NCBI RefSeq assembly: GCF_007859855.1
Contig: NZ_SJPK01000002.1
Span: 62,001 to 126,000 of the forward strand
DNA length: 64,000 nt
DNA from: Allorhodopirellula solitaria
GTDB taxonomy: Bacteria; Planctomycetota; Planctomycetia; Pirellulales; Pirellulaceae
Direction of reading: 5' to 3'
The notes under the pieces: generated by a model
The model's database searches: none
What the model saw: only the letters and a program-made list of their open reading frames with translations
Told to the model about the DNA's origin: nothing
Translations under genes and position numbers: made by a program
Shown: piece after piece, positions 58,541 to 61,670 of the stretch
Layout of the letters: every line of letters begins with the position of its first letter
Numbering within the stretch: the first letter of the stretch is position 1

Positions 58541-59461
58541 ATGAATACGCCACGACGCCAATTTTTGGGCTTGAGCACAGGTCTGCTTACCGGTGGTCTG
58601 ATTTCCAGCATCGCGTCCCGCGCCGCTGCCCAGTCTCCGGCCGGCCCATCCAACTGGGCCAACCCTGTCCATCGGGTCGCCAACGCGACGATGTCGGCAG
58701 CGAAAACAACCGTCCCCAAAGAGGAACCGGGTAAGGAAGCATTGCGACGCGGCCTCGACATGGCGCGACAGGCGTTGGAGATCTCACGCAATGACATCCG
58801 CGACTACACCGCGATCCTAGTCAAGCGTGAACAGATCGACGGCACCGTTGGCGATCATGAGTACATGATGATCAAGGTCCGAAACCGCAAAGTATCCGGC
58901 GGACAACTGATTCAGCCCTTCAGCGTGTATATCGGCTTCCTCAAACCCGCGGCCGTGAAAGGCCGTGAAGTCATCTACGTCGAGAACCGCAACGATGGCA
59001 AAATCGTCGCGCACGAGGGCGGCTTCAAAGGCCGGTTCCTTCCCACGGTGAACCTTCCCGTCGACGGCATGCTCGCAATGCGTGGCCAACGCTACCCACT
59101 GACTGAAATCGGCGTCGAAAAGATGATCGTGAAACTCATCGAGCGAGGCGAAAAAGCCTTGCGGCACGAAGATGTGACCTGCGAATTCCGCAAAGGCGCA
59201 AAACTGAAAGATCGTGTTTGCACCGTGCTCGAAGTCACCCAGCCCACACAGCGCCCCGATGCGGAATTCTACCAAGCCCAAGTGTTCATGGACGACCAAC
59301 TGAACATGCCCATCCGCTACGTCGCTTATCACTGGCCCGACCAACCCGGCGGTCAAGGCGAAGTGATCGAGGAGTACAACTACCTCAATCTCAAGGTCAA
59401 CGTGGGACTGACCGATGCCGACTTTGACCCCGCCAACAAAGAATACAACTTTTATTCGTAG
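58541..59461 (+). CDS. Tat-exported DUF1571-like protein
   Basis: The N-terminus MNTPRRQFLGLSTGLLTGG carries a twin-arginine motif, and cleavage is expected near SRAAAQ (about residue 30). The 306-residue protein contains RDYTAILVKREQIDG, the region PFSVYIGFLKPAAVKGREVIYVE and a C-terminal YVAYHWPDQPGGQGEVIEEYNY with NVGLTDADFDPAN, which fit my memory of the planctomycete DUF1571 group. Function is unknown; a lipoprotein-carrier-like fold is possible for this shape of protein but is not shown by motifs. A tandem-repeat array begins 8 bp after the stop. Confidence 0.8.
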   Translation: MNTPRRQFLGLSTGLLTGGLISSIASRAAAQSPAGPSNWANPVHRVANATMSAAKTTVPKEEPGKEALRRGLDMARQALEISRNDIRDYTAILVKREQIDGTVGDHEYMMIKVRNRKVSGGQLIQPFSVYIGFLKPAAVKGREVIYVENRNDGKIVAHEGGFKGRFLPTVNLPVDGMLAMRGQRYPLTEIGVEKMIVKLIERGEKALRHEDVTCEFRKGAKLKDRVCTVLEVTQPTQRPDAEFYQAQVFMDDQLNMPIRYVAYHWPDQPGGQGEVIEEYNYLNLKVNVGLTDADFDPANKEYNFYS

Positions 59462-59468
59462 GCGATTG

Positions 59469-60343
59469 TCGACCGACGGCTCCGACCGTCGCGAGAAGGA
59501 TACACGCCCGGCCCAGCTCAGACGGGCGGAGCCGTCTGGCTACTTTGTCGACCGACGGCTCCGACCGTCGCGAGAAGGATACACGCCCGGCTCAGCTCTG
59601 ACGGGCGGAGCCATCTGGCTACCTTGTCGACCGACGGCTCCGACCGTCGCGAGAAGGATACACGCCCGGCTCAGCTCAGACGGGCGGAGCCGTCTGGCTA
59701 CTTTGTCGACCGACGGCTCCGACCGTCGCGAGAAAGGGCACACGCCCGGCTCAGCTCAGACGGGCGGAGCCGTCTGGCTACCTTGTCGACCGACGGCTCC
59801 GACCGTCGCGAGAAGGATACACGCCCGGCTCAGCTCAGACGGGCGGAGCCGTCTGGCTACTTTGTTGACCGACGGCTCCGACCGTCGCGAGAAAGAATAC
59901 ACGCCCGGCTCAGCTCAGACGGGCGGAGCCGTCTGGCTACTTTGTCGACCGACGGCTCCGACCGTCGCGAGAAAGGACACACGCCCGGCTCAGCTCAGAC
60001 GGGCGGAGCCGTCTGGCTACTTTGTCGACCGACGGCTCCGACCGTCGCGAGAAAGGGCACACGCCCGGCTCAGCTCAGACGGGCGGAGCCGTCTGGCTAC
60101 TTTGTCGACCGACGGCTCCGACCGTCGCGAGAAAGGACACACGCCCGGCCCAGCTCTGACGGGCGGAGCCGTCTGGCTACTTTGTCGAACGACGGCTCCG
60201 ACCGTCGCGAGAAAGGACACACGCCCGGCTCAGCTCAGACGGGCGGAGCCGTCTGGCTACTTTGTTGACCGACGGCTCCGACCGTCGCGAGAAGGATACA
60301 CGCCCGGCCCAGCTCAGACGGGCGGAGCCGTCTGGCTACTTTG
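59469..60343. repeat. Tandem array of eleven 79/80-bp hairpin repeats
   Basis: Unit starts are at 59469, 59548, 59627, 59706, 59786, 59865, 59945, 60025, 60105, 60185 and 60265. Units are 79 bp when they read GAGAAGG and 80 bp with GAGAAAG. Each contains GACGG-CTCCGA-CCGTC and AGACGG-GCGGAG-CCGTCT hairpins. Copies differ at only a few positions. Because 79 is not a multiple of three the array is open in more than one frame, but the Arg/Pro-rich translations are not credible genes. The final unit overlaps the stop of the next gene. Confidence 0.95.
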
Positions 60344-61670
60344 TCACCAACTCGCGTTTGACTTTCTCGATCGCTTGCAAGCGCAGCTCGTTGTTCTCGG
60401 CGGGAAAGCCGATCGCCTGGACGACAAACCCGAATTTGGGATGGAGAGCGCTCTCGTCCAAGTCGAAATCAGCTAGGGACTGGTCACTCAACAGCACGAT
60501 CGTGGCCATGGCGGAATCTCTCAGCTGAGGCTCGATCACGTTCCCTGCGAAATACTGCAGATCGCTGGCGGCCCGCTCGTCATCGAGGAACTTGGCGACC
60601 GCAGCGACATGACTGACGTCGCCGAATCGCGCGACCGCTTGCATGGCCATGGCAAGTGTTGGAGGATCGGTCGATTTTTGCAGCGTTTCCAAGGCTAGCG
60701 GCAGCGATTCAGACAGATCACAATTCAATGCGAACCACAGCATTTTTTGAAGATCTCGAATATCACCGCGAGTCGCCCAGCCACCGAGCAGAGCGCGAAA
60801 CAATCCTGAGAGCTGAGCATCCTGCAACAAAATCGCAGTAGCCTCTCGCTGCAAGACGCTAAACAAAGCATCCTCTTCGACCTGGCTGACGGGCATGTCC
60901 CGGTCGTTGGCGAGCAATAACAACGTGATCACATCGGCCTCGGTCGGCAACCGCTGCTCGACATACATCCCACGCTGGATCTCAATAATCGTGGCTCGGA
61001 ACGCCGCCGATCGATCTGCGGTCGCCCCCTCGAGGGCCGCCGCAGCGGATTCATGCCGCAGCACGATCTCCACAAACAATTCACGCACGCGGCCCCCGTC
61101 ACCGAGGATCGTGCGAGCGACGTCCCAGCCTTCCATGGGGACGTCCTGCCCAGCCAAGAACGCATCGATACGCCCCGCATTTTCAGTGCTGGCGATCCCG
61201 TCAGCGACATCGCGGGCGCGGACGCGAACCTCGAGGTCCGCATGCTCCTCGGCGGCGAGACGCAAGTCCGGTAACGCCGGCTTGCCGAGCGCTCGCAGTT
61301 TGGCGGTCGCCTTTTCACGGACCGCGAACTCCGTCCAACCGAGCTGGTCGACCCACTGCGAGACCTCATTCGGGCCCGCCGACTCTGCCCCACTGGCCGC
61401 ATCACCCTCCTCATCCGGCCCACCCTCTGCCTGTGGGCCCGGGGCGACATCGCGGGCTTGCTCGCGAAAAACGGCTGCAATTTGATCGCCGGCGAGATGT
61501 GGCTGTGAGAACGTCGCGATCCCCTGGGCAGGCTGCGGGGACGCCGCTGGCGATGGGGACACCGCTGGAGTTTCCTGGGCCACCAAGTGCACAGCGGGCG
61601 TGAAGGCCAATGCAAACAGAGTGATCGCGAGCCATGATTGTTCGCCCCCTCGTTGGTTTCTACCTACCAT
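60336..61670 (-). CDS. Exported helical-repeat (HEAT-like) protein, stop codon in repeat unit
   Basis: This 444-residue protein has a signal peptide (LAITLFALAFTPAVHLVAQ) and a Pro/Ala/Gln-rich and acidic linker to about residue 95. A helical region of HEAT-like repeats follows, with WTEFAVREKATAKLRALGKPALPDL as the clearest unit. The family is not recognised. The final codons VTK and TAG lie across the junction with the tandem array (60336-60343 belong to the last repeat unit), so the array has supplied the stop codon. The N-terminal part may associate with the envelope; function is unknown. Confidence 0.8.
   Translation of the reverse strand: MVGRNQRGGEQSWLAITLFALAFTPAVHLVAQETPAVSPSPAASPQPAQGIATFSQPHLAGDQIAAVFREQARDVAPGPQAEGGPDEEGDAASGAESAGPNEVSQWVDQLGWTEFAVREKATAKLRALGKPALPDLRLAAEEHADLEVRVRARDVADGIASTENAGRIDAFLAGQDVPMEGWDVARTILGDGGRVRELFVEIVLRHESAAAALEGATADRSAAFRATIIEIQRGMYVEQRLPTEADVITLLLLANDRDMPVSQVEEDALFSVLQREATAILLQDAQLSGLFRALLGGWATRGDIRDLQKMLWFALNCDLSESLPLALETLQKSTDPPTLAMAMQAVARFGDVSHVAAVAKFLDDERAASDLQYFAGNVIEPQLRDSAMATIVLLSDQSLADFDLDESALHPKFGFVVQAIGFPAENNELRLQAIEKVKRELVTK

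Follow-up and report, generated by a model that had tools for sequence, protein, structure and literature searches.

We analysed a window of 64,000 nucleotides from Allorhodopirellula solitaria, in which the ends of two convergent genes are joined by a tandem array of short repeats. The features of this locus are the following:

58541..59461, plus strand: left convergent gene, DUF1571 family (PF07608, E 1.4e-79)
59466..60345, no strand: tandem array of eleven probable REPIN units, 79 or 80 bp each (TRF, unit starts, 96% mean identity)
59468..59491, plus strand: C-type REP of unit 1, tag GTCG with hairpin CGACGG-CTCCGA-CCGTCG; ten others in the array
60315..60339, minus strand: T-type REP of unit 11, GTAG tag with hairpin CAGACGG-CTCCGC-CCGTCTG; ten others in the array
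60336..60338, minus strand: TAG stop of the HEAT-like gene, contributed by the tag of unit 11
60336..61670, minus strand: right convergent gene, 444 aa, with a HEAT match that stays under the Pfam cut-off

The eleven-unit array was detected by TRF at 59466-60345 with a period of 80, 11.1 copies, 95% matches and a score of 1592, the runner-up tandem array within the window scoring only 82. The units start at 59468, 59547, 59626, 59705, 59785, 59864, 59944, 60024, 60104, 60184 and 60264, and are on average 96% identical. A previous sequence-only reading had described eleven near-identical units of 79/80 bp, which these data bear out. The two lengths are real, but they do not strictly alternate as that reading had it, since the steps between unit starts are 79, 79, 79, 80, 79, 80, 80, 80, 80 and 80, with the first three at 79 and the last five at 80. 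The array was also correctly placed just behind the DUF1571 stop codon (59459-59461), the distance to the first tag at 59468 being 6 nt rather than 8 bp.

At the other end, the minus-strand gene finishes with GTG ACA AAG TAG, and its final nine bases, ACAAAGTAG, are repeat sequence. The last unit had been said to supply the stop codon of this gene, and its GTAG tag indeed provides the TAG. The helical-repeat label given to the same gene is a weak one, the single Pfam match, HEAT_2, reaching 13.7 bits against a cut-off of 27.7.

Rfam at gathering scores gave no match in the window, and phage records searched in distant mode gave none either. A 24-base T-type pattern was absent from genome and viral contig collections, from which records of this genome were possibly excluded. 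A CRISPR array, which needs unique spacers, was ruled out, as the spacers are 57-98% identical within loci and 90% identical in the window array.

Anatomy and folding of the repeat unit

Each unit is made of two related hairpins arranged head to head with their tags outside. The C type reads GTCG-AC-CGACGG-CTCCGA-CCGTCG and the T type, on the opposite strand, GTAG-C-CAGACGG-CTCCGC-CCGTCTG, with GACGGCTCCG as the core common to both. Two stems per unit had been noticed from the sequence alone; both exist, with slightly longer arms than described (CGACGG/CCGTCG and CAGACGG/CCGTCTG). A regular expression applied to the window and 31 other repeat loci of the genome recovered 378 tagged cores, mostly GTAGCCAGAC (173) and GTCGACCGAC (156). 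As in GTAG REPs, the unpaired tag lies directly 5' of the palindrome, being strictly GTAG in the T type only, and the core stems of 6 and 7 bp with loops of 6 nt fall within the 5-13 bp stem and short loop of that class.

REPs paired as REPINs or BIMEs have this anatomy, in which a short palindrome carries a tag at its side and two such elements face each other. We consider it probable that the array is a cluster of REPINs, i.e., inverted tagged hairpin pairs of the GTAG REP class, locally amplified after one insertion. The presence of GTCG rather than GTAG in half of the pairs is a point against this REPIN explanation.

When each hairpin is folded by itself as DNA, the second clearly outperforms shuffled sequences (z -3.8), but the first does not (z -0.9): 47 of 200 shuffles fold as well as it does, which also speaks against the REPIN explanation. 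Across 26 units, pairing is kept in 97.6% of cells. The covariation score was reached by none of 500 shuffles, and the count of double-changed pairs by 166 of 500; covariation is thin, a single pair showing changes on both sides (3 of the 26 rows), and has to be counted on the same side as the poorly folding hairpin. An alternative fold, in which the two REPs of a unit form one long hairpin, was considered and rejected: it folds well, yet no pair in it is changed on both sides, and the sole double change observed preserves the separate hairpin while breaking one pair of the long one.

A genome-wide family and its placement relative to genes

Searching the genome with the 80-base unit returned 236 matches, and the 31 loci were picked from about 150 of these, the ones listed; at least one further array (C5:207495-208027) lies outside them. 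The window and the 31 loci contain 419 monomers in a search allowing five substitutions. They form 370 close neighbour pairs, of which 182 are head-to-head C/T pairs, the repeated unit of two inverted REPs with tags outside that characterises REPINs. A further 166 are tail-to-tail C/T pairs and 22 are of other kinds, 20 of these being same-type tandem neighbours.

Head-to-head spacers mostly measure 23-41 nt, with outliers at 61-156. The tail-to-tail junction is 3 nt long in 136 of 166 cases, 129 of which consist of A/T only. Of the 24 loci with such a junction, 19 have one of 3 nt and two have one of 4 nt, and the remaining three loci have 10, 10-11 and 25 nt, respectively. The outer edges of clusters are mostly end-specific, with AAA adjoining GTAG and ATA adjoining GTCG, and few clusters carry the same 3 nt on both sides; thus, the 3-nt junction looks like part of the element. 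It is very unlikely that the unit is instead a MITE of a DDE transposase, with an imperfect terminal inverted repeat and the A/T junction as target duplication or circle spacer. The unit ends, GTCGACCGACGGCTCCG and GTAGCCAGACGGCTCCG, do match as an inverted repeat, and the junction is mostly 3 nt of A/T, but the outer flanks are mostly end-specific and the tags beside the hairpins fit REPs.

Arrays of 4 to 15 units occur at many loci. Units within a locus are on average 78-99% identical, with values of at least 93% in 15 of 20 loci, and the lowest ones belong to L042 and L034, each with more than one array. With one unit taken from each of 27 loci, identity is 94% at the C end and 93% at the T end, but only 43% in the spacer. 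Judged from these alignments, the pattern fits a history in which a single unit was amplified locally at each site while the ends stayed alike across sites. One might also suspect that the copy number in the window results from misassembly of a shorter repeat, the assembly being in 62 contigs and 880 bp of near-identical repeats being hard for short reads. We regard this as extremely improbable, given that the units carry private differences and that many other loci hold arrays with their own spacers.

The 17-mer GTAGCCAGACGGCTCCG occurs 77 + 92 times in this genome and three times in its congener G045; the remaining 197 genomes in a family sample of 199 lack it. A covariance model built from 26 units, one per locus, matched this genome at least 174 times and G045 21 times, and eleven other congeners had 0-2 matches each, with 150 first-look candidates scored per genome. 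Applied more strictly to 80 genomes of the family, it matched three: this genome, G045 and G063, which belongs to another genus. A pattern allowing two mismatches proved too loose for use in the 12 congeners, forward and reverse counts being near or below the reversed control; in G045 the count was somewhat above it (101 vs 71). G045 is the nearest relative found, and the copy number of the family is near species-specific. The proposed search for the unit in the genome and its relatives has revealed a genome-wide family, and the selfish origin suggested by the sequence-only reading is supported.

Simple codon-based gene calls, which are approximate, place 21 of 47 clusters between same-direction genes, 14 between convergent and 8 between divergent genes, with 1 intragenic cluster and 3 missing a neighbour. 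Leaving out these last four, 43 clusters were compared with 126 control junctions; some clusters occupy one common intergenic region and hence are not all independent. Convergent junctions account for 14/43 clusters vs 16/126 controls (p = 0.005). Divergent ones account for 8/43 vs 22/126 (p = 0.82) and are no rarer than in controls; that not every cluster sits at a 3' end is a further point against the REPIN explanation. Of the 21 clusters between same-direction genes, 20 are closer to the stop upstream; 14 overlap that stop or come within 10 nt of it, compared to 2.2 expected under uniform placement. At gene ends beside clusters, chosen by eye, a REP is found at most 11 nt away in 25 of 32 cases; the stop lies inside the REP or its 3-nt flank in 7 of the 32, and in 2 of these 7, the one in the window included, the GTAG tag is the stop. 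The many intergenic copies, mostly downstream of genes, are a further trait of GTAG REPs. Separately, 16 monomers (8 pairs) at L042:2872-3492 lie inside a predicted frame of 1277 codons; they may be translated, or the gene call may be wrong.

A selected role in termination or stability is the main rival to a neutral or mildly useful 3'-end insertion. According to it, the repeats would be kept by selection as 3'-end elements, that is, as terminators or RNA stabilisers insulating convergent and same-direction neighbours, with a mobile origin being secondary. The excess of convergent clusters and the proximity to upstream stops are in its favour, as are 22 terminator-like sites found in a lenient scan against 2.5 in shuffles (20 of the 22 lie in the array, 17 on the plus strand and 3 on the minus strand). 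However, the tail after the hairpin, CTACTTTGTC, has no continuous T-run, the divergent clusters do not fit such a role, and neither does a copy number close to species-specific. We hold this explanation to be somewhat unlikely; the present effect of the array would most likely be neutral or mild, in the form of transcribed hairpins behind both genes.

Known REP systems and Y1 transposases

REPINs are thought to be non-autonomous elements that a Y1 (HUH) transposase mobilises in single-stranded form. The genome itself contains 16 matches to PF01797 (Y1_Tnp) at 15 places. Their flanks, taken to about 4 kb in most cases and to 1.5 kb in three, hold no REPs of the family, bar one tail-to-tail pair about 3.8 kb from a Y1 transposase gene (L051). 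Among the Y1 loci of five relatives, a family REP is present at 1 of 30 scanned, about 1.1 kb away and in a different setting. A link between the transposase pair at L051 and a pair in G045 was dropped, the transposase copies matching but the setting being different. Association with a RAYT gene, a frequent but non-obligatory trait of GTAG REPs, is thus not seen, and the lack of a Y1 gene with the family in the examined flanks counts against the REPIN explanation. REPtrons may be lost, as stated in the accessible part of PMC3733652. A Y1 transposase may once have moved the family.

Several distinct REP-like systems seem to exist in this genome. Y1 genes at no fewer than four loci (L009, L010, L011 and L055) adjoin other tandem hairpin repeat families. 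Three Y1 transposase genes lie within 5 kb at L050 (G000:C20:1-14000), where short repeats containing TCACCTTTTCTTTTC are found. Another Y1 transposase copy, with an in-frame TAA, is located near an intact copy (G000:C1:487176-487520).

Compared to the BIMEs of E. coli (BIME-2), the family has an unrelated sequence and no bulged stem. It resembles the y-z mosaics of E. coli (PMC8266576, in part) in that two REP types of opposite orientation alternate in tandem. GTAG REPs occur in many phyla according to the accessible text of PMC3733652 (Di Nocera 2013), which describes them as dimerised head to head and clustered in tandem, lying behind genes and often supplying TAG stops through their tags. 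The present family shares with them the unpaired tag beside a short palindrome, the head-to-head dimers and the tandem clusters, as well as the position behind same-direction and convergent genes and the tags giving TAG stops. It differs from that account in the GTCG tag on one hairpin of each pair, although the account includes GTMG variants, and in having no adjacent transposase gene. The same text mentions different GTAG REP families in R. baltica, together with many tyrosine transposases with flanking repeats.

REPINs and tandem clusters are known from Pseudomonas fluorescens SBW25 (PMC3116915, in part). There, as here, two inverted REPs form the unit and some tandem clusters consist of near-identical units; the SBW25 REPINs are mostly single, with four in the largest ordered cluster, whereas many loci here have 4 to 15, mostly joined by a fixed 3-nt junction. 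Y1 transposases and guide tags are treated in the available parts of PMC8266576 and PMC6006769. The present family is not named among 29 satellites of R. baltica in the accessible part of PMC6749651. Within the available portions of this literature, no description is recognisable as this sequence family, PMC3733652 being compared without its consensus figure. The family belongs to a described class, with the anatomy of GTAG-class REPs paired as REPINs. Its less usual traits are that arrays are prevalent, that GTCG and GTAG hairpins form heterotypic pairs, that the 3-nt junction is fixed, and that a relative has single copies at some of the same junctions.

Comparison with relatives and history of the array

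In G045, the DUF1571 and HEAT-like genes are still convergent, and the outer neighbour apparently matches by eye. The gene ends joined by the array here are separated there by about 5 kb with two reading frames (L133:5768-10573), the second of which has no close copy in the genome of the window (best 60% among the matches listed). At the same distance as here, exactly 6 nt behind the DUF1571 stop, G045 has a degenerate C-type hairpin scoring 22/30 against the C consensus; among 20,000 random windows, 32 reach at least 20 and 18 reach 22, the G045 site and true REPs included. Behind the HEAT-like gene, a weaker GTAG-like stretch scores 18/30 against the T consensus, a value reached by 87 of 20,000 windows. 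In G141 and G130, inspection by eye shows no comparable remnant behind this DUF1571 gene. These scores suggest that G045 likely retains a remnant of the element at the window locus.

The 21 G045 matches stand singly at the loci examined. Six of these singles (L142, L143, L144, L155, L156 and L160) lie between orthologues of genes that flank repeats here. Our genome has arrays at four of these shared junctions, namely L019, L031 (5308-6479), L033 and L048; at the other two, L039 and L031 (2917-3023), it has short three-monomer clusters. The flanking bases place the insertion identically at L019, L033, L039 and the second L031 site. The junctions were found starting from the G045 copies, so that empty sites lie outside the count. 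Together with the window remnant, the six shared junctions indicate that the insertions predate the split of the lineages. Shared sites combined with copy-number differences fit past mobility, and the element is a small DNA hairpin that was probably once mobile.

The same comparison could be read in reverse, with the arrays being old and G045 having lost copies, i.e., a contraction in the relative rather than an expansion here. This would agree with the shared sites, and with one relative carrying the family, no outgroup fixes the direction. We nevertheless find it unlikely, as the eleven other congeners hold 0-2 matches and the G045 copies are decayed, their ends being 63% and 69% identical to each other (16 of 21, usable length) vs 93-94% between loci here. 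We infer that copies were gained here rather than lost in G045. The proposed expansion into a convergent 3' junction agrees with an array here and remnants only in G045, while the choice between gain and loss rests on one relative, which is again a point against the REPIN explanation.

Following the REPIN explanation, one REPIN would have landed between the two convergent genes before the lineages split, and local tandem amplification in this lineage would have produced the eleven units. Tentatively, single REPINs at separate sites may have turned into arrays in parallel within one lineage, with most units joined by the same 3-nt A/T junction whatever the site. If true, this would fit end-to-end copying by a Y1 transposase in trans, for example through a circular single-stranded intermediate copied into a concatemer, and not chance slippage, and the tagged ends would be kept alike genome-wide while the spacers drift. 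The conversion of single REPINs into long tandem arrays is not well explained so far. With six matched junctions, and singles vs arrays at four of them, this genome and G045 make the step accessible to comparative study, and the constant 3-nt junction offers a testable hint at the enzyme involved. The family is notable for the extent of its array formation.

At the window locus, repeat sequence would have come to cover the last codons and the stop of the right-hand gene. The 444-aa HEAT-like gene is present in 12 of 12 congeners. In G045, the protein is 70% identical and ends in ELVPAK-TAG, one residue longer than ELVTK-TAG here. The longer ancestral C-terminus anticipated from the sequence alone is not borne out to any weight, given this single extra residue and the equal length of the proteins at L061, L062 and L063, which end in ELLPE, ELLPE and ELLSR; the other eight congeners have longer, dissimilar tails. 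Orthologues ending at the same codon without the array had been named as evidence against the sequence-only reading, and for the stop codon this is nearly what is found. By comparison with the 12 congeners, the end of the HEAT-like protein is nearly unchanged.
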